Positions 3,000-13,300 of a stretch of DNA of 35,700 nt are shown here, one piece after another. A program made the position numbers and the translations under genes. A model generated the notes under the pieces. It was not told the DNA's origin. It ran no database searches and was given only the letters and a program-made list of their open reading frames with translations. Origin of the DNA: an uncultured Myxococcales bacterium (lineage in GTDB: Bacteria > Myxococcota_A > UBA9042); contig CAJBNH010000114.1 in the NCBI GenBank assembly GCA_903955385.1, positions 1 to 35,700 of the forward strand, in the 5' to 3' direction. Numbering within the stretch: position 1 is the stretch's first letter; every line of letters starts with the position of its first letter.

Positions 3000-4928
3000 T
3001 CAACCGACGGCGAGCTCGGCGTTCGCCTTCGCGTCGGGCTTCTTGGCCGTCATCAGCGACACGACCACCAACGTCAGGAAGCTCATGGGGATTGAGAACA
3101 GGCCCGGGTTGGCGAACGGAATCGGCGCGTCGGACCGCACCTTGCCATAGAGCTCGTACATGTCGGGCGAGAACAGGATGATCCCGATCGACAGGGTGAT
3201 GCCCACCAGAATGGACGCCACGATGCCCTGCGGTGTCGTCCGCTTCCAGAACAGCAACATGATGATCGAAGGCAGGTTCGCCGAGGCCGCCACTGCGAAC
3301 GCGAGACCGACCAGGAACGTCACGTTCACCCCTTGGAACAGGATGCCGAGGATGATCGCGATGATGCCCACCACGAACGCGGCTATCTTGCCCATGCGGA
3401 CCTTCTTGCGATCGTCCAGCTTGAGCCCCATGTACCGGTCCATCACGTCATGAGCCACCGCACCCGAGGCCGCGACAATGAGGCCGGCGACCGTGCCCAA
3501 GACCGTAGCGAAGGCGATGGCCGAGATGACCGCGAACAGGATGGGACCGAACGACTTGGCAAGCAGCGGACCCGACATGTTGTTGTCGGCCGGATTCACC
3601 ACCGCGTTCACCATCGCGCCAAGGCCCATGTAGAGCGTCAGAACGTAGAAGAAGCCGATCGCCGCGATGGCCACGATGGTCGACTTGCGCGCGGCGGCCG
3701 GCGTCGGGACGGTGTAGTACCGGATCAGGATGTGCGGCAACGCGGCCGTGCCCAGGAAGAGGGCGAGCATCAGAGAGATGAAGTCCAGCTTCTCGATGGG
3801 CGTGCCCTCGACCTTGAACTTCTGGCCGGGCCGCATGATCTTGCTTCCCGCCGTGATCGACGGGTAGTAGGCGGTCACCTTGGCGTCGCCATCGTCGAAC
3901 TTCGCAGGCTTCCAGGTACGCACCTGCGTGCCCGGCGAGCCGATCTTGGCCAGGAATTCGAACGGCCCGACGGATCCCGTGGTGGCCTCGGCACCCGTCT
4001 TGCCGTCGATCGCCTCGAGGTTGCCGACCTGCCGCAGTTGGTTCTCCTTGGAAGCGGGCGCCCCGTTGATCACTTTGGAGCCGTCGGCCAGCACGACAAC
4101 GGACTGCAACTCGACCAGGCTGACCTTGCCCTCCTTCTCGATCTGCTTCCACCATCCCAGCTTGCCCGCGTTCTCGAGCTTGACGAAATGGCTACCCGAG
4201 GCCTCTTTGGCGTCCAGGAATCGAAACGCCGGATCGGACGGGATGGCCTTGCCGTCGGCCACTGTCGCCTCGATCGTGGCGTACTTGTGGTAGGGGACCG
4301 TGCCGTCCTGGTCAGGCGTGGTCGAGAGCCCGCGCAACAGCACCGCGCCCGTGACGATGACCGAAAAGATCACGAGCAGCCCCCCCTTGAGAAACTGCAC
4401 GTAGGTCGTCGACGTCATCCCCGCAGTGGCCACGATGACGATCACGATCGAGCCCACCAGGATGACGCCAACCCAGTGGGGCAGGCCCAACAGCGGAGTC
4501 ACGAGCACACCCGCCCCGACCATCTGCGGAATCAAGTAGAAGATCGACACTACCAGGGTGCTGACCGCCGCTGCCAGTTGGATTCCCTTGTGGTTGAACT
4601 TGCTGTCCAGCGCATCGGTGAAGGTGTACTTGCCCATCCGCTTCATCGGTTCGGCAACCACGAATAGGGCAACGATCCAACCGGCAAGGTAGCCGATGGA
4701 ATACAGGAACCCGTCGTAGCCGGCCGTGGCGATCATCCCGCAGATTCCCAGGAACGACGCGGCGGAAAGGTAATCTCCCGCAAAGGCGATGCCATTGACC
4801 GCCCAGTGGATGTTGCCGCCCGCGGCGTAATAGCCGGCAGCCGACTTGGCCTTGCGGGCGAAGAAGAAGGACAGGCCGAGCACGAACGCGACGAAGAACA
4901 CGAAGAGAGCGATCGAGATGGTTTCCAT
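3000..4928 (-). CDS. ActP-like sodium:solute symporter (acetate/carboxylate permease) with a large soluble insert
   Basis: A 642-residue inner-membrane protein of the SSS family. The N-terminal helices include GNIHWAVNGIAFAGDYLSAASFLG, and helix 5 is YLIPQMVGAG, both hallmarks of the ActP branch, as is the later LPHILIRYYTVP. The ATG at 4928 lies 2 nt beyond the TAA of the DUF485 gene, an arrangement usual for yjcH-actP pairs. Residues about 202-381, between helices of the membrane core, form a long hydrophilic block with charged and Gly-rich segments; E. coli ActP has only a short loop there. The probable role is sodium-coupled uptake of acetate or a related monocarboxylate. The family call is firm and the exact substrate inferred. 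Confidence 0.9.
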   Translation of the reverse strand: METISIALFVFFVAFVLGLSFFFARKAKSAAGYYAAGGNIHWAVNGIAFAGDYLSAASFLGICGMIATAGYDGFLYSIGYLAGWIVALFVVAEPMKRMGKYTFTDALDSKFNHKGIQLAAAVSTLVVSIFYLIPQMVGAGVLVTPLLGLPHWVGVILVGSIVIVIVATAGMTSTTYVQFLKGGLLVIFSVIVTGAVLLRGLSTTPDQDGTVPYHKYATIEATVADGKAIPSDPAFRFLDAKEASGSHFVKLENAGKLGWWKQIEKEGKVSLVELQSVVVLADGSKVINGAPASKENQLRQVGNLEAIDGKTGAEATTGSVGPFEFLAKIGSPGTQVRTWKPAKFDDGDAKVTAYYPSITAGSKIMRPGQKFKVEGTPIEKLDFISLMLALFLGTAALPHILIRYYTVPTPAAARKSTIVAIAAIGFFYVLTLYMGLGAMVNAVVNPADNNMSGPLLAKSFGPILFAVISAIAFATVLGTVAGLIVAASGAVAHDVMDRYMGLKLDDRKKVRMGKIAAFVVGIIAIILGILFQGVNVTFLVGLAFAVAASANLPSIIMLLFWKRTTPQGIVASILVGITLSIGIILFSPDMYELYGKVRSDAPIPFANPGLFSIPMSFLTLVVVSLMTAKKPDAKANAELAVG

Positions 4929-4930
4929 GG

Positions 4931-5227
4931 TTACACCCCCGCCTTGTCGCTTGCGGGCGCTTCCAGTCGGCGCTCCTCTACGAGACACATCCTGTTGTAG
5001 ATCACGGCCATCACAAGGGCGACGACGATCAGCCCAAGACCGTAGACGACCGCCAGGTTCAGGCCCATCAGCACCGTCTTTTCCATCATCGACGGGTCGA
5101 TCAGGTTGATCGCCACGAACAGAACGTAGACGAGTGCGTAGACAAGAAACATCCATACGCCAAGGCGCGTCTTGTAGGCCATGGCCAAATCCTTGACCTG
5201 GCTCTTCTCCGCCGGTTCGTGGAACAT
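4931..5227 (-). CDS. DUF485 small membrane protein (YjcH-like)
   Basis: A 98-residue protein with ATG at 5227 behind GGAGGT at good spacing. Two hydrophobic helices are clear: one starting at MFLVYALVYVLFVAINL and one at LAVVYGLGLIVVALVMAVIY, followed by the YNRM-type cytoplasmic tail found in DUF485. Members almost always sit directly upstream of an acetate/solute symporter, as here (stop 2 nt before the symporter ATG). It is thought to assist or form part of the transporter; the mechanism is not known. A shorter start at the later Met (MAYKTRLG) is possible. Confidence 0.88.
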   Translation of the reverse strand: MFHEPAEKSQVKDLAMAYKTRLGVWMFLVYALVYVLFVAINLIDPSMMEKTVLMGLNLAVVYGLGLIVVALVMAVIYNRMCLVEERRLEAPASDKAGV

Positions 5228-5288
5228 GCGCTACCTCCGATGCTTTTCGGGGAATTCGCGCGGAGGGGTCGCGCGTCTTCTGGGGGGA

Positions 5289-5310
5289 AAGTGGCCGCCC
5301 CCGGCCACTT
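5289..5310 (-). other. GC-rich hairpin in the leader of the transporter operon
   Basis: AAGTGGCC (5289-5296) pairs with GGCCACTT (5303-5310) over a 6-nt loop. On the minus strand it lies about 50 nt after the stop of the sensor gene and about 60 nt before the DUF485 ribosome-binding site, and it is followed by TTTCCCCCC rather than a U-run. It could be a weak terminator or attenuator between sensor and transporter genes. Only the pairing is seen. Confidence 0.3.
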
Positions 5311-5361
5311 CGCCGCGTGTAGCATTGAATGGGTTCGTCCCGCAACGGCCCATCGTGCAAA

Positions 5362-8280
5362 TCAGCCGGCTCCCAAGAAGTCGTAGCCGACCTTCTTGAG
5401 CAGGATGCCGACCTGGCCGAAGGTCTTGCGCAGGAGCGCTTCTTCCAAAGGAGTCAGGGCCTTGGGGTCGAGTTGGTTGCCCGGAATTGCGCCTGCACCG
5501 ACGGCCGCTGCTTGACGCTTGAGGCGCGCCTCCATCAGGAAGGCATAGGCCTCAGTCACCTCGTCGAGGCTCGAGCGCGTCAGAGCGTTCTTTTCGTGCA
5601 GGCGGCGCAGCCGGTCGAACGTATTGGTTTCGGCGACGTCATGACGCAGCGCATACAGTCGCGCGAAGTTCACGATCGGCATCATCGCGTCCTTCAGGCT
5701 CAGCGTCTTCGGCCCGCGCCCCTCCGACTCGGCGACGATGTGCCCGAACAGCCCCAGCGGCGGCCGGTACGTTTGGGCGTTCTGCGCAAACAGGGGGAAG
5801 AACGCGGGGTTCTCGGACAGTTCCTCGCGGATGTGACGCCGAAGCTCCTCAGTCAGGGTCCGCTCGCCGACCACACAGCGGAAGTCGAAGAAGATTTGGA
5901 CAGCCAACAGGTCCTGAGGATTGCGCGTGCGGATCCAGCTGCTGAACGACGCCTTCCACGACGACAGCGGGCGGCACCAATTCGGGTTGCGAGCCATGAC
6001 CTCGCCTGGGCAGAACTGATACCCGGCGTCGTTCAAGCCCTGGCAGACCTTGACGCCCAGCGCGCGAAACCACGCCTCTGCGCTGGGGTCGGCGTCGCCA
6101 CCCGAATCCTCGTAGACGATGGCGTTGTCCTGGTCGGTGGCGAGCGTCTGCTCCTCGCGGCCCTCGCTTCCCAGCGCGACCCAACAGAATCGCCTCGGCG
6201 GAAGCCCCATTTCCTCGATGGCCAGCGCCACCAACCGTTCCGTCACAGCGTCGGAAACCGCCGTCACGACCCGGTTGACGTTTCGGGGCCGTGCGCCGCT
6301 GGCGATGAGCGTTCGAACCTGCTCGGGAAGCCGCGCCCGACATCGGGCCAGGACTTCAGGACTCTCCGCGCGTCGGATCTCCTCGATCAGGACCGCAGCC
6401 GAGTACCGGTGCAGCTGCGACAAGTCGGCCTGCCGGACAAGTCCCTGTATCTGCCCACCTTCATCCCGAACCGCCAAGTGCTGAATGCCGCGTTCGCGCA
6501 TCCGCTGCAACGCCTCGTAGACCAGAGCGCGGTTGTCGATGGTGATGAGTGGCGAACTCATGATTCGGAACACGGGCGCCGCCGGATCGAGCCCCGCCAC
6601 TACGACCCGCTCGCGCACGTCGCGGTCGGTGACGATACCGATTGGCTCTCGCCCGTCTGCCGTGACCAGCAGGGCTCCGGGCTCACCGACTGTCATCTGC
6701 GCCGCGGCCCGAAGCACCGGAGTCCCCATCTCGCAAGTTGCGGCCGGCCGCACGAAGCGAAGAATCGGTTCGTTGAGGAAGAGGAGTGACGCTTGCAGCT
6801 CCGCCAGCAGCGCCTCGCGCTCGGACTCGGCCTGGCGCTCGCGGGTCACGTCCTCGACCAACCCCTGACAAGACGGGGGTCTGCCGTCCTCGCCGGGTGC
6901 CAACACTGCCGACAGCGACACCGTCACTCTTGACGCGTCGCGCCGCCGCAACACAAGCAGTCGGTTCTTCACGACACCGTCCGTGGCGAGCGACCGCGCG
7001 AGGGCGGTCGCCTCGGCGGGGTCCACGCACATTGCTTGCAGATCCAGCTTGCCCGGATCGTCGCCATCCACGAGTCCGAGGATGCGACGTGCCGCCGGGT
7101 TCAACTCGACCAGCCGCGGGTGCTGGCCCACGGTCGTTCGCACGACGCCTACGTCCAACGTCGCCCGCAAGGCCTCGTAGCCCCCGACCCCGTCGCCGCC
7201 GGCCGCCAGACGCTGCCTGGCCATGTCGCGGACATTGACGATGACGCCCTCGCGTCCACCGAACGTGACGCGAGTGGCCGACAACAGCACGTCGAGGTCG
7301 GTCGAACCGTCGCCGCGTCGCAGCCACGTCTCGACTTGCATCGGCGCCGGTTGCCCTGCGGCTACGGCACGCAGATAGGCCCGACCGGTTTCGCCCTCCA
7401 CGCCGGGCGCCACAAGGTCCAACCAATCACGGTGCTCCATGTCCTCTGGTGTCAGGTCGAGCATCCACTGCAGCGTTCGGTTCGAGAACGCGCATCTGCC
7501 CTCGACCGCCAGTAGCGTGCCCTCGGTCGCGGCCTCGACGAGCGCACGGTATCGCTCGTGCGACTCGGTCAGGGCATCCTCGGCCGCCGTGCGTTGCCGT
7601 TCGATGCGCAGGCTTTGCAGCACAACGGACGCGAAGATCATCGACACAATCGCGACGATCACGATGGAAATCCATAGGATACGTGCCGAAAGTGCTGAAA
7701 TCTCCCGCCGCACGTCGTCGGTGTAGAGGCCCGTGCCGATGATCCAACCCCATGGTTTGAACCCCTGCACGTAGGACTCCTTGAGCACCAGCCGGCTCGG
7801 GTCGTCCTTCCACTGCCAAACGTAGTCGACGTAGCCGCTGCCGCGCTCACGGACGACGCGGGCGAACTCGACGAAGACCCGGTTTCCCAAGGGATCCGTG
7901 AAGCTCGTGACGTCCTTGCCGTTCAGGTCGGTCCGGAACGGGTGCATGACCATGACGGGCGTCTGGTCCGTGATCCAGAAGTAGTCTTTGCCTTCCGGCC
8001 CATAGCGCAGGTCACGCACGCGCTTGGCGGCGGCACTCTGGGCCTCGGCCCGGGAGAAGCGTCCTTCCAGTTCCTCTTGGTGGTGCTCTGCCAGGATGCT
8101 CGTGGCGGATCGCGTCAGTTCGCGAATTGTTTCGCGCTTTCGTTCCAAAAGGTTCTGCTCGAACTCCGGTAGAACCACGCCGAAAATCAGGCCAACGAAC
8201 AGGCAGATGGCCAAGCCGGTCGGCAACAGGATTCGGACCAGAAATCGCTTCCACTGCAACGGGGTATGGGATGACTTCAT
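5362..8280 (-). CDS. Membrane sensor: sCache_2, two PAS domains, CBS pair, DUF294 nucleotidyltransferase
   Basis: A 972-residue protein with ATG at 8280. Order: TM1 about 17-38; periplasmic single-Cache sensor about 42-195 (DYFWITDQTPVMVMHPF is a typical sCache_2 core); TM2 about 200-222; PAS-like segments about 240-355 and 366-482; a CBS pair about 505-625 (GIVTDRDVRERVV); DUF294 with the nucleotidyltransferase signature GSEGREEQTLATDQDNA at about 704-720, including the TDxD metal-binding pair; and a DUF294_C helical end to 970. CBS-DUF294 proteins are regularly encoded beside acs/actP genes, and the four-gene minus-strand block fits that. It probably senses a small carboxylate outside and reports it by modifying a nucleotide or protein; the target is unknown. 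Confidence 0.88.
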   Translation of the reverse strand: MKSSHTPLQWKRFLVRILLPTGLAICLFVGLIFGVVLPEFEQNLLERKRETIRELTRSATSILAEHHQEELEGRFSRAEAQSAAAKRVRDLRYGPEGKDYFWITDQTPVMVMHPFRTDLNGKDVTSFTDPLGNRVFVEFARVVRERGSGYVDYVWQWKDDPSRLVLKESYVQGFKPWGWIIGTGLYTDDVRREISALSARILWISIVIVAIVSMIFASVVLQSLRIERQRTAAEDALTESHERYRALVEAATEGTLLAVEGRCAFSNRTLQWMLDLTPEDMEHRDWLDLVAPGVEGETGRAYLRAVAAGQPAPMQVETWLRRGDGSTDLDVLLSATRVTFGGREGVIVNVRDMARQRLAAGGDGVGGYEALRATLDVGVVRTTVGQHPRLVELNPAARRILGLVDGDDPGKLDLQAMCVDPAEATALARSLATDGVVKNRLLVLRRRDASRVTVSLSAVLAPGEDGRPPSCQGLVEDVTRERQAESEREALLAELQASLLFLNEPILRFVRPAATCEMGTPVLRAAAQMTVGEPGALLVTADGREPIGIVTDRDVRERVVVAGLDPAAPVFRIMSSPLITIDNRALVYEALQRMRERGIQHLAVRDEGGQIQGLVRQADLSQLHRYSAAVLIEEIRRAESPEVLARCRARLPEQVRTLIASGARPRNVNRVVTAVSDAVTERLVALAIEEMGLPPRRFCWVALGSEGREEQTLATDQDNAIVYEDSGGDADPSAEAWFRALGVKVCQGLNDAGYQFCPGEVMARNPNWCRPLSSWKASFSSWIRTRNPQDLLAVQIFFDFRCVVGERTLTEELRRHIREELSENPAFFPLFAQNAQTYRPPLGLFGHIVAESEGRGPKTLSLKDAMMPIVNFARLYALRHDVAETNTFDRLRRLHEKNALTRSSLDEVTEAYAFLMEARLKRQAAAVGAGAIPGNQLDPKALTPLEEALLRKTFGQVGILLKKVGYDFLGAG

Positions 8281-8341
8281 GGCACGTCCTGCGGGGAGGT
8301 GACGATCCCACGGTCAGGGCTGCCCTGTCCAGCCGTCCGGC

Positions 8342-8371
8342 TTCAAGCGCGCCGCCGCTCCGTGCTATGGT
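8342..8371 (+). promoter_or_regulatory. Possible sigma70-type promoter for the second DUF294 gene
   Basis: TTCAAG (8342-8347), an 18-nt spacer and TATGGT (8366-8371), preceded by TG two bases upstream, lie about 33 nt before the GTG start at 8404. The 123-bp spacer between the two divergent DUF294 genes must hold both promoters. The match is weak in such GC-rich DNA. Confidence 0.3.
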
Positions 8372-8403
8372 CTTCCGGGCCGAAAGGGACCAGGGGGCGC
8401 GCC

Positions 8404-10227
8404 GTGCTGGAAGAACTGACTCGCGATCTGTCGGCCTGGCCGCCCTGGAACACGCTGCCTCAGGCCGTCGTGCGGGCCGCCGCCGGGTCGTTTCACATCG
8501 AGTACCTGCCCGCGGGGACGCCCCTCGACCCTGGCCGGGCGACCGCGGACGCACTGGTGTCCATCCGAACCGGTCACGTGGACTTCCTGAGGCCCGACGG
8601 GACGTTGCGAGACCGAATGATGCCCGGCGACACCCGCCTGCTCGCCTCGGCTTTCGAACCCAACGGGTCGGTGCAGACGGGGGCAGACACCCTGGCCTGG
8701 TTTCTGCCGCGGCCGGCGTTCGATGCGCTGCTGGGCGACACCGCGTTCGCTCGCGCGTTCGATCCCCACGCCCGTGCCATGCGCCTCTCGGCGCCCCGCA
8801 CACTTCGCGCGGCCCCTGAGGCGCTCGACCTGACTCGCAGTCGCGCGGGCGACGTGGCACGGCAGCCGACGCTCGTGCTGCCCCCCGACACACCGATCTC
8901 GACGGCCGCGCAGGCGATGCGCCGCGAGGACTGCTCTTGCGTGCTGGTCACTAGCGAGCCGCCCTCCCTCGTCACGGACCGCGAACTGCGCAATGAAGTG
9001 GTCGCGGGCGGACTGCCCCCCGAAGCCCCCCTGTCGGCGTTGCACGTGCCCGCAGTCGTCCTCGACGCAGAGGCATCGATGCTGGACGCGCTGCTGCGGA
9101 TGATGGACCGCGGCGTGCGCCATGTGCTGGTGCCGCGGCGAGACGGGGGCCTCGGCGTGCTGACCGATGCGGACCTGTCTCGTGGTCCACGGCAAGGTTC
9201 GCTGTTGCTGGCCTGGGGCGGTCACCCAAGTCGTGACGAACCAGCCGTTTTCGGCGACCGGGTCACTCAGGTGGTCGCATCCCTGCTGGACGAGGGATAC
9301 GACGCGAGCGTCGTCGGCCAGGTAGCTGCGGCCGCGCACGACGCCAGGGTCGCCAGCCTGATCGCCCATGCGCGTGCAGAGTTGGGCGCGCCACCCGTGC
9401 GATTCGCTTGGGTCGCCGTCGACGCGATTGGCCGCTGCGACCCGGTGGTGCTCCCCGTTCCCGACCATGTACTGGCCCACGAGGAGGGTGCGCGGCCCGA
9501 AGCGGCGGCTTGGTTCCAGGCCTTCGCGCGGCTCGTGGGCGACCGTCTGGACGCCGACGGTCTGCCCAACGGTCTTGGCCGCACGCGCGCCACCAATCCG
9601 CTCTGGTGCCGACCCACGACCTCCTGGCGGCGCTATGTCGCCGACTGGACGGCCGAGCGCGGCCCGGATGCGCCAACGGCCACGGTCGGTCCGTTTCTCG
9701 ACGCACGTGTCGTCGCAGGCGACGCAGACATGGCAGCGCCCCTCATGCTCGGCCTTCGCCAAGCCGCCGTCCGCCCGCCGTTCCTGCGTCGGCTGGCGCG
9801 CGCTGCCCTCACTGTCCAGCCTCCCGTGACTTGCCTGGCCACAGGATTCTTGCGTGCTGACGGCGAGACCGTTGCGACCCTGGATGCCGCGGCAGCGTTG
9901 GCCGCGCCGATCGCAGACCTCGCGAGGATCGCAGCGCTTTCTTGTGGCAGCGACGCACGATCCACGGCCGAGCGTCTCCGGTCCCTCGACCGCAGCGCGC
10001 CGGTCGACGCCGCCCTGGCCCAGGACCTCGCCACGGCATTCGACTGGGTGTCGCGGCAGATCCTTCGGGCCTCCCTCGCCCGCCCAGGATGTCCGCAGCA
10101 CCTCCACGCGGTCGATCTGGACCCGTCGGACCGGGCGCACTATCGGGACGCCGCCGCCGTCGTCCAAGAGGCCCGGGCCACCCTGGTGCGCCTGACCGGC
10201 GACGACCCAATCAGGAGAAACCGTTGA
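8404..10227 (+). CDS. CBS-DUF294 protein with a degenerate nucleotidyltransferase motif
   Basis: About 607 residues from GTG 8404 (purine-rich AGGGGG upstream); an in-frame start at 8299 is possible but reads into the divergent spacer. The N-terminus (to about 140) looks like a cyclic-nucleotide-binding fold; residues about 150-260 form a CBS pair (DRELRNEVVAGGLPPEAP resembles the neighbouring sensor's TDRDVRERVVVAGLDPAAP); then DUF294 and DUF294_C. Where the sensor has GSEGREEQTLATDQD, this protein reads VDAIGRCDPVVLPVPDHVL (about 339-357): the GS, the Glu-Gln pair and the TDxD are gone. The NPLWCRPTTSWRR segment is still conserved. It therefore looks like a non-catalytic paralogue, perhaps a regulatory partner of the sensor. 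It overlaps the exonuclease by 4 nt. Confidence 0.83.
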   Translation: MLEELTRDLSAWPPWNTLPQAVVRAAAGSFHIEYLPAGTPLDPGRATADALVSIRTGHVDFLRPDGTLRDRMMPGDTRLLASAFEPNGSVQTGADTLAWFLPRPAFDALLGDTAFARAFDPHARAMRLSAPRTLRAAPEALDLTRSRAGDVARQPTLVLPPDTPISTAAQAMRREDCSCVLVTSEPPSLVTDRELRNEVVAGGLPPEAPLSALHVPAVVLDAEASMLDALLRMMDRGVRHVLVPRRDGGLGVLTDADLSRGPRQGSLLLAWGGHPSRDEPAVFGDRVTQVVASLLDEGYDASVVGQVAAAAHDARVASLIAHARAELGAPPVRFAWVAVDAIGRCDPVVLPVPDHVLAHEEGARPEAAAWFQAFARLVGDRLDADGLPNGLGRTRATNPLWCRPTTSWRRYVADWTAERGPDAPTATVGPFLDARVVAGDADMAAPLMLGLRQAAVRPPFLRRLARAALTVQPPVTCLATGFLRADGETVATLDAAAALAAPIADLARIAALSCGSDARSTAERLRSLDRSAPVDAALAQDLATAFDWVSRQILRASLARPGCPQHLHAVDLDPSDRAHYRDAAAVVQEARATLVRLTGDDPIRRNR

Positions 10228-11249: not shown

Positions 11250-12035
11250 TCACGTCGCCAGTGACCGCAGCAGCGGGCCAATGTCGGTCATCAACTCTGC
11301 GCCCGGAATCGCCGCCACGAGCCCAAGTTTGATGGCATTGCCGCCCACGATCAGCCTTGGGCGCGTGGCCTCCGGCCAGGCGGCGATGCGCGCGGCAATG
11401 TCCAGCACCCCCGGAATCTGCTCCGGCAGCGCCACCGACACGAGCAGGGCCCGCGGCGACGCGTGCCGGATCAGGGTCAGCAACGCCTCCAGAGGCGGCG
11501 TCGGCAATAGCGCGTGTGCGTCGACGCCGTGGCTGGCGAGCCACAGCGCAAGAAGCCGAATCCCGAGCGTATGGCAGTTGCCCGGCGCGTTGACCAGGAC
11601 CACATGCGCCCGGTCCGGACGGGTCGAGTCCTGAGCACCTGAAGCGCTGGTCCGGGCGACAATCGCCGCGTACACGCGCTCGCAGAAGTTGCTGAAGCGG
11701 TGTTCGTCCGCCACGGTGATGGCGCCGCGCTCCCAGTCCTTGCCGATCTCGAACAACAGCGGCGCGAGGAGGCCCACCAGCACGTCCACGGGCCGCACGT
11801 TGATGTGCGCGGCCCGCAGGATCATCGCTTCGGCTTCCCCGACATCGCCGCGCCGCCCTGCGGCCGCGAACTCGCCCTGCAGCTCGGCCAGGAACCTGAC
11901 CCGGGCAAGATCCGGCTCGGAATCGGCGAGCATCGAGGACTCGCAGGTCGCGCAGATGCCGTGCGTTATCTGCAGCACCTCATACGGCTCAGTCTCGCCT
12001 TGAAACTGCTGACAGTAGGCGCACCAGTTCAGCAT
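11250..12035 (-). CDS. Cobalamin-binding-like sensory protein with N-terminal CxxC pair
   Basis: A 261-residue protein from ATG 12035, overlapping the preceding gene by 7 nt (ATGCTGA), so translation is probably coupled. Residues 1-31 hold C5xxC8 and C28xxC31 (WCAYCQ ... HGICATC), a likely zinc or redox site. Residues about 40-130 form the four-helix B12-binding_2 region with the conserved W101 and E111-H112 in EIGKDWERGAITVADEH. Residues about 143-260 form a Rossmann half whose ligand loop is PGNCHTLG (151-158): H155 is in the cobalamin-binding His position, but Asn replaces the usual Asp/Glu of DxHxxG/ExHxxG. This resembles CarH- and AerR-type photoreceptor domains and the heme-binding SCHIC variant. 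The cofactor is unproven. Linkage to heme oxygenase suggests tetrapyrrole or light sensing. Confidence 0.8.
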   Translation of the reverse strand: MLNWCAYCQQFQGETEPYEVLQITHGICATCESSMLADSEPDLARVRFLAELQGEFAAAGRRGDVGEAEAMILRAAHINVRPVDVLVGLLAPLLFEIGKDWERGAITVADEHRFSNFCERVYAAIVARTSASGAQDSTRPDRAHVVLVNAPGNCHTLGIRLLALWLASHGVDAHALLPTPPLEALLTLIRHASPRALLVSVALPEQIPGVLDIAARIAAWPEATRPRLIVGGNAIKLGLVAAIPGAELMTDIGPLLRSLAT

Positions 12036-12934
12036 GGCGCGAAACCGAAGGCATCGAGTCGTGACATGTACTCCGCGACCAGCGCAGTCCACTCCGGCGA
12101 GAACCGCAGCGGATCGGTGAGCCAGCCGCTGGTGGCCGCCAGCCCGCCCCGAACGCCTGAGCGCTCGTCCAACCATGCCGACGCCAAGAGCGCGGCTGCA
12201 GATGGAATCACCAGCCCTGGGCACGCGCCCAGTCGGGCGTCGAAATCGCGCACCAGTCGCGCCCGTCCCTCGCCCCCAGTCAACTTCGTATCGCGCTCGG
12301 CCTGCAGATGGGCCAGGAACGGCATCAAGCGTGCCGGCTGCTCCGGCCGCTCCGGGAACTCGGCCGCCAGCGCGGTCTGGATCGCGCGCAGATGGCTCTC
12401 CAGAATCACGGTCGGGATGCCGCGGCTCGCAAGGACGCTTCGCAGCCAGACAAGGCTTCGCGTCGCCGTCTCCGCCGGCATGTGCGTCAACGCCACCAGC
12501 CAACAGCTGTCGCTCCTGGTGAAGCGCAGGCCGCGTTCGCCGAAGCGCAAGCCCAGGTACGGGAACTGGTTCCAGGCGTCATGACCGGCGCGCAGGGCCA
12601 ACGCGACCTCCATCGGGTCCTGCGGCATGGCGTGGTCGCCCGCCTCAGCGTTGACGGCCACGACATGGTGCCGCAGGTCCGTGTCCGCGAAGGGGAACAG
12701 CGCCGCACACAGCGACGCCAGCTGCTCGAAACACAAGACGGCTGCGTCGGAGACCTGCCTGCCTTGCGCAGCGTCGCATGGGAGCGCGTTCAGCAGCCCG
12801 ACGAAGGTGTGCCAGTGTGCCGCCGTGTCCTTGCCGTAGCAGCCGAAGTACGACAGGCGTTCTGGGGTCACCCCCAAGCAGCGGGCGTAGGCGCCGCGCA
12901 GCACGAGTCCGCCGCGCTGCGAGCCCTCGAGCAC
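12029..12934 (-). CDS. Heme oxygenase C-terminal half fused to an unknown domain (downstream of in-frame TAG)
   Basis: This frame is continuous with the N-terminal heme oxygenase half (12971-13300), separated only by a TAG at 12971-12973. The first codons after the stop read AESPHHLAGILYVLEGS, then GG...GVTPERLSYFGCYGKD, which is the second half of a bacterial biliverdin-producing heme oxygenase (LYVLEGSxxGG, FxGYG). Past the expected heme oxygenase end there are about 230 further residues that I do not recognise, including SDSCWLVALTHMPAE and WLRSVLASRGIPTVILESHL, which look alpha-helical. No good ribosome-binding site precedes 12934, so it is probably expressed only by readthrough, or the stop is an error or a recent mutation. 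It overlaps the B12-like gene by 7 nt. Confidence 0.7.
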   Translation of the reverse strand: MLEGSQRGGLVLRGAYARCLGVTPERLSYFGCYGKDTAAHWHTFVGLLNALPCDAAQGRQVSDAAVLCFEQLASLCAALFPFADTDLRHHVVAVNAEAGDHAMPQDPMEVALALRAGHDAWNQFPYLGLRFGERGLRFTRSDSCWLVALTHMPAETATRSLVWLRSVLASRGIPTVILESHLRAIQTALAAEFPERPEQPARLMPFLAHLQAERDTKLTGGEGRARLVRDFDARLGACPGLVIPSAAALLASAWLDERSGVRGGLAATSGWLTDPLRFSPEWTALVAEYMSRLDAFGFAPC

Positions 12935-12970
12935 ATAGAGGATGCCGGCGAGGTGGTGGGGGGACTCCGC

Positions 12971-13300
12971 CTAGACCAAGGTTTGCGCTGCGCACGCCAG
13001 AGCGTGCTCGATCGCCGCCGTGATGCTCGGCACGCCCGATGACGCTACCAGTTCGAGGTCGGCGTTCAGCAACGGGACCTTCGGTCTGGTGTGGCTGGCC
13101 AGCCGGGCCAGGGCCGGGTCGGAGGCACCGGCAAGCGTCCGTTCCAGCAGCGCGTGCACGACCGCGAGGCCGCGCAGGAAGCTGACGATGGCCACCTTGG
13201 GCAGTGCGCCTGCGTGCAGGGCCTGAAAGTACGGCAGCGACTCCAGTCGCTTGTGGAGGCTGGCCGTCTCGCTGCGCACCTGCTCGCCCAAGTCTGGCAC
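12971..13300 (-). CDS. Heme oxygenase N-terminal half, ending at an in-frame TAG
   Basis: A 109-residue frame starting at GTG 13300, chosen because GGGGAGG lies 5 nt upstream; the longer frame runs into the dispersed repeat. The heme-ligand region EQVRSETASLHKRLESLPY places the proximal His at residue 16, exactly as in bacterial HemO/BphO proteins, and SFLRGLAVVHALLERTL fits the next helix. The protein stops at codon 110 (TAG 12971-12973), but the same frame continues as good heme oxygenase sequence. Full length would be 423 residues, about twice a normal heme oxygenase. Heme oxygenase opens heme to biliverdin, the chromophore of bacteriophytochromes. Alone, this half cannot form the heme pocket. 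Confidence 0.72.
   Translation of the reverse strand: MPDLGEQVRSETASLHKRLESLPYFQALHAGALPKVAIVSFLRGLAVVHALLERTLAGASDPALARLASHTRPKVPLLNADLELVASSGVPSITAAIEHALACAAQTLV

Follow-up and report, generated by a model that had tools for sequence, protein, structure and literature searches.

A candidate split photocobilin-type photoreceptor encoded by a heme oxygenase-globin fusion gene and an overlapping CxxC-B12 gene in an uncultured Myxococcales bacterium

Two overlapping genes in the window, which is the whole stretch of 35,700 nucleotides that was analysed, rather likely code for a photocobilin-type photoreceptor that is split between two proteins and brings its own chromophore supply. One gene codes for a heme oxygenase (HO) joined to a predicted bilin-binding globin domain and carries an in-frame TAG, and the other codes for a B12-binding protein with an N-terminal CxxC knuckle. 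The domains, the residue conservation, the gene overlap, and the recurrence of the unit were computed. The binding of adenosylcobalamin (AdoCbl) and biliverdin, the docking of the two proteins, the photochemistry, and the output are proposed by analogy with SasPcob (PMC10979010) and BBAG-2 (PMC10151467). The features are the following.

12029 to 13300, minus strand: HO-globin fusion gene, with a GTG start at 13300-13298, a TGA stop at 12031-12029, and an in-frame TAG within
About 12710 to 13300, minus strand: HO domain (PF01126)
12971 to 12973, minus strand: in-frame TAG inside the HO domain, at about residue 109 of HO
12032 to 12682, minus strand: predicted photoglobin/BBAG-type bilin-binding globin domain, from a nine-member family, reciprocal matches, and hhalign
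12509 to 12511, minus strand: Asp aligned with Asp270 of SasPcob, invariant in nine homologues
12446 to 12448, minus strand: Trp aligned with Trp296 of SasPcob, invariant in nine homologues
12029 to 12035, minus strand: 7-nucleotide overlap ATGCTGA between the end of the HO-globin gene and the start of the CxxC-B12 gene, with the same sequence in L008
11250 to 12035, minus strand: CxxC-B12 gene of 261 amino acids, from the open reading frame and PF02607/PF02310
11931 to 12035, minus strand: Cx2C-x19-Cx2C knuckle (C5, C8, C28, C31)
11664 to 11873, minus strand: B12-binding four-helix cap (PF02607, residues 55-124, E 4e-10)
11735 to 11733, minus strand: codon of W101 of GxxW, within the PF02607 cap
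11705 to 11700, minus strand: E111-H112, within the PF02607 cap
11334 to 11606, minus strand: B12-binding Rossmann domain (PF02310, residues 144-234, E 7e-9)
11573 to 11571, minus strand: codon of H155, the predicted lower cobalt ligand, in N153-x-H155-x-x-G158

The earlier note on this DNA had proposed a tetrapyrrole- or light-sensing unit. This is the best-supported reading, with three corrections: AdoCbl takes the place of heme as the predicted ligand of the small protein, biliverdin is assigned to the globin domain, and the HO frame contains a TAG. Its description of a heme oxygenase with an extra domain agrees with the PF01126 match and the additional C-terminal region, and the 261-residue protein does start within the last codons of the HO gene and does combine the CxxC-x19-CxxC, the B12-binding bundle, and a Rossmann domain with NxHxxG (153-158). 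As it had also stated, there is no phytochrome next to the pair, and none was detected in the genome (PF00360, E≤1).

HO-globin fusion gene and its in-frame TAG

A Shine-Dalgarno-like GGGGAGG lies directly 5' of the GTG start of the fusion gene. Profile searches with the TAG read through matched the HO domain to PF01126, above the gathering cutoff (E 7e-11), and the two halves searched separately gave E values of 0.0035 and 0.0013. The proximal histidine is in TASLHKRLE and, as seen when the intact relative is aligned with HmuO (1wnw), corresponds to H20 of HmuO; the distal-helix motif is YVLEGSQRGG. The domain is therefore recognized as a heme oxygenase by both profile and proximal ligand, in a frame that is interrupted in the window. 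The TAG, which the earlier note overlooked, is placed between the proximal histidine and the distal-helix motif. It is the single stop in 421 codons, and the frame has no frameshift. In L008 the same position is AAT (Asn), two base changes away from TAG.

No second HO was found in the genome (PF01126, E≤10), which makes the one in the window the only HO of this genome. With this TAG and no second copy, the strain may no longer have a working unit. The HO half in this genome has undergone either a recent nonsense change or loss, or else it contains a mis-sequenced codon in an assembly of 201 contigs. If the TAG is real, the genome would be left without a known biliverdin source, and the unit would be at most an AdoCbl sensor.

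Downstream of the HO domain the gene carries an extra C-terminal domain of approximately 215 residues, which was not matched by any family among the Pfam and NCBIfam models. Its distant matches include a globin-B12 fusion from G289, and a reciprocal search with the globin of this fusion returned the C terminus of the HO of G002 (35% identity, E 1.1e-5) together with globin-B12 fusions in other genomes. When compared by hhalign, the nine-member globin family matched six globins of globin-B12 fusions with an E value of 2.3e-5 and a score of 39.2, the top score of 200 column shuffles being 19.5. The HO-fused and the stand-alone subsets of the family, each taken alone, also matched the fusion globins, which themselves have matches in the globin half of photocobilin 8j2w/8j2x (6e-6) and in phycocyanin (1e-5).

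The Asp and Trp that are invariant in this family align with Asp270 and Trp296 of SasPcob, which contact biliverdin, with Trp296 located at the D-ring (PMC10979010). The SasPcob numbering takes into account an offset of +6 between chain and paper, which was checked on W61, E71-H72, and H108. The family has the invariant Asp and lacks the Cys linkage motif CXRD, as is characteristic of the BBAG-2/photoglobin lineage. On the basis of the profile links and of the Asp/Trp alignment, the domain is therefore called photoglobin/BBAG-like, with a predicted relationship that is significant but distant. When the profile of the globin family was searched directly against the PDB sequences, it gave no match and did not reach 8j2w. 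The AlphaFold model of the globin, built from a two-sequence alignment, was poor (pLDDT 45) and was not used as evidence; a Foldseek search with this model listed mostly hemoglobins, none of them significant. Biliverdin is probably held by this C-terminal domain of HO, rather than by the small protein.

CxxC-B12 protein and recurrence of the gene pair

The family profile of the CxxC-B12 protein was searched against the PDB sequences and matched photocobilin 8j2x/8j2w (6e-31), CtMerR (5e-20), and CarH (1e-18), with weak values for AppA SCHIC (E 0.05-0.18). The AlphaFold model of this protein (pLDDT 68, pTM 0.68) gave photocobilin 8j2w as the first-ranked structure in Foldseek (E 5e-9). Residues G98, W101, E111, H112, and H155 are shared without exception by five homologues. 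The signature of light response in this type of protein comprises four motifs, including GxxW, EH, GxxH, and GxxxP (PMC11796333). Three of the four (GxxW, EH, and GxxH) are complete in the CxxC-B12 protein, and GxxxP keeps the Pro without the Gly. The occurrence of NxHxxG instead of DxHxxG is normal in this clade, given that CarH and SasPcob have Glu at that position. The position of His132 of CarH is occupied by Arg, as in CtMerR, and for this reason a CarH-type bis-His light state is unexpected.

The earlier note had left cobalamin, heme, and biliverdin open as ligands of the small protein. Since the residues W101, E111-H112, and H155 of CarH and photocobilins are kept, the likeliest ligand of this protein, as judged from its sequence, is adenosylcobalamin, bound in a photoreceptor role, rather than heme; biliverdin finds its probable place in the partner. 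AdoCbl is plausible in the cell, because a gene for a PduO-type cob(I)alamin adenosyltransferase is present in the genome. A separate MerR-B12 protein of the CarH/LitR type, with the W, EH, and ExH motifs, is encoded at G000:C180:13578-14003 (L005/L024) and is predicted to be a second AdoCbl photoreceptor, unlinked to the HO-globin locus.

At the N terminus, the knuckle residues C5, C8, T24, H25, C28, and C31 are invariant in five homologues, and the knuckle is a putative metal site. No literature on the CSYCK...HGICP knuckle was found.

The ATGCTGA overlap would couple the translation of the two genes; the scan for promoters and terminators found none. The earlier note had made its proposal depend on conservation of the pair in other genomes, and the pair with its overlap recurs in an uncultured Myxococcales MAG (G002, locus L008), with a variant in G290 (L056). 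In L008 both genes are intact and share 61% (HO-globin) and 60% (CxxC-B12) identity with those of the window. In G290, which belongs to another family, an HO-globin gene with 49% identity overlaps at GTGA with the PAS-PAS-CxxC-B12 gene that comes after it (L056:1551-3160). Its knuckle comes after the PAS domains, in a long form (CSYCKKVRDDRGYW...THSICPIC) that has no Pfam entry, and the CxxC knuckle may serve more generally as an output or metal module. An HO-globin gene followed by a start-overlapping CxxC-B12 gene was thus observed in three genomes of two families. Among the 379 Myxococcota genomes sampled, the globin family is present in 10 and the HO-globin fusion in 3. The arrangement is rare but real, and more than chance.

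Other genomes contain parts of this set. G099 has a stand-alone globin gene followed by a CxxC-B12 gene, with no HO detectable in the genome, and G358 has a CxxC-B12 gene without globin or HO (L097:3452-4252), which is divergent from a MacA/MacB-like efflux operon. Four genomes of approximately 11-13 Mb, from one genus, have a stand-alone globin; in these, no related B12 gene lies close by and no HO could be detected. The stand-alone globin genomes and the lone CxxC-B12 gene of G358 show that globin, HO, and CxxC-B12 are not obligate partners. At L057 and L058, from two large genomes that belong to the same genus, the stand-alone photoglobin is found near genes for a KUP-like potassium transporter and a ferritin-like protein; it has no adjacent B12 gene, the genomes lack HO, and there is no evident chromophore supply. 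At L115 and L118 (G118 and G365), globin-B12 fusions continue in frame into histidine-kinase-like domains and are apparent photocobilin-kinases in Myxococcota.

Elsewhere in the window, positions 3000-10227 contain a sodium:solute symporter, a Cache-PAS-CBS-DUF294 gene (8280-5362, minus strand), and a divergent CBS-DUF294 gene (8299-10227, plus strand), the predicted starts of the last two being 18 bases apart. These genes probably form an uptake-sensing unit, with no relation to the HO-globin and CxxC-B12 genes.

Proposed mechanism and rival explanations

In an intact split photoreceptor, the HO domain would convert heme to biliverdin by ring opening, and the biliverdin would be bound non-covalently in the photoglobin domain fused to HO. 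This domain would dock onto the CxxC-B12 protein, which would carry AdoCbl with H155 as the lower ligand and with W101, E111, and H112 surrounding the adenosyl group. The Co-C bond could then be broken by green light acting on AdoCbl, or by red light through biliverdin coupled to AdoCbl, and this cleavage would change the quaternary structure. The signal may be passed on by protein-protein contact at the N-terminal Cx2C-x19-Cx2C knuckle. A more specific version, that the unit charges itself, with the HO-joined globin receiving biliverdin without its release and docking on the AdoCbl protein, and with the CxxC-TH-CxxC segment as the output, is put forward tentatively, as we consider it somewhat doubtful. 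If it were true, these proteins would form a distinct class of photocobilins that make their own second chromophore.

The in-frame TAG allows two other explanations. It may be a true nonsense mutation, in which case the window shows the pseudogene of a once-functional photoreceptor, with the globin and the B12 protein possibly still being made. We regard this as a serious possibility that falls somewhat short of an even chance. It would account for the stop in the genome's sole HO, a codon that differs at two bases from the Asn codon in the relative, but a single stop with no frameshift in 421 codons speaks against it, as do the dN/dS values of 0.37 before and 0.30 after the stop, compared with 0.36 for the intact B12 gene, although a recent loss would be invisible in these values. 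A base error is also possible, because the draft genome is fragmented into 201 contigs. Decay can be reconciled with the split photocobilin reading, which concerns the intact unit. Alternatively, the TAG could be read through or recoded, for example as pyrrolysine, giving a full-length HO-globin. The frame is indeed open on both sides of the TAG, but the genome has no PylS above the cutoff, and on this ground recoding through PylS was rejected; moreover, the relative has an ordinary Asn codon at this site, which is a non-conserved residue. We consider recoding extremely improbable.

The pair may also be explained without optical coupling between the two proteins. The B12 protein could be an AdoCbl-only sensor of green light or of B12 level, and the HO-globin a co-transcribed enzyme that scavenges or produces biliverdin. 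The retained light signature is consistent with this, and so are the CxxC-B12 gene without HO or globin in G358 and the globin and CxxC-B12 genes in G099, whose genome has no HO. In addition, a globin can lose most of its biliverdin binding, as reported for AbDPcob (PMC10979010). However, the Asp of the biliverdin pocket, which is lost in AbDPcob, is invariant in the globin family of the window, and a fusion of HO to a globin would be pointless without the use of biliverdin. This explanation is therefore judged unlikely. A SCHIC-type heme sensor that controls the breakdown of heme by HO is even less so: HO would make sense as its partner, and the fold is shared with AppA SCHIC, as its weak match reflects, but the matches to photocobilin and CarH are 15-30 orders of magnitude better. 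In AppA SCHIC the Trp cap is replaced and the His is shifted by two (PMC9144470), whereas here the Trp cap and EH are retained and the His occupies the cobalamin position. We hold this possibility to be very improbable.

If the split photocobilin reading is true, chromophore synthesis and light sensing would be linked in one polypeptide, photocobilins would exist also as separable subunits, and a photoreceptor in need of no added biliverdin would be at hand. The role of the BBAG-2/B12/HO clusters of Myxococcales could then be put to a direct test using two small genes, and the CxxC knuckle would point to an output module common to PAS proteins, as in G290.

Comparison with known systems

CarH and LitR have the AdoCbl-binding module and the signature residues in common with the CxxC-B12 protein; CarH carries a MerR DNA-binding domain where this protein has the N-terminal Cx2C-x19-Cx2C knuckle, and its His132 is replaced by Arg here. 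AppA SCHIC and AerR share the four-helix plus Rossmann fold, but the heme-specific changes of AppA SCHIC are absent from the CxxC-B12 protein, which keeps W101 and H155.

The joint mechanism is known from photocobilins. Similar domains occur in the photocobilins SasPcob and AbDPcob (Zhang et al. 2024, PMC10979010), for which the paper describes a CarH-like AdoCbl domain with W, EH, and the lower-ligand His, as in the CxxC-B12 protein, and a globin with biliverdin-contacting Asp and Trp, as in the HO-fused globin. The window pair has the CarH-like cobalamin domain with light-response residues, and it has the photoglobin domain, at distant similarity, on the partner gene. Photocobilins, as described there, are a single polypeptide without HO or CxxC knuckle, whereas here the two domains lie on separate, overlapping genes and the globin forms a fusion with HO. 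To judge from these sequences, the pair may work like a photocobilin, but it is not a photocobilin by architecture.

The earlier note knew of no description of the pairing. That globin, B12 protein, and HO are associated in Myxococcales has in fact been published (Rockwell et al. 2023, PMC10151467), and the part that stands is narrower: a literature search found no HO fused to a photoreceptor domain, the main text of PMC10151467 does not mention an HO fusion, and the CxxC knuckle was likewise not found described. The association of the globin with a B12-binding gene and HO is present in the window. As published there, BBAG-2 is a separate globin gene that is often accompanied by a pre-2 bilin reductase, with HO encoded by a gene of its own. 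In the window, HO and globin form a single fusion, and a search for bilin reductase (PF05996) found none in the genome of the window (G000) or in 10 relatives. Within the published accounts available, the HO-globin fusion with its CxxC partner looks like a new variant of the photocobilin/BBAG-2 theme.
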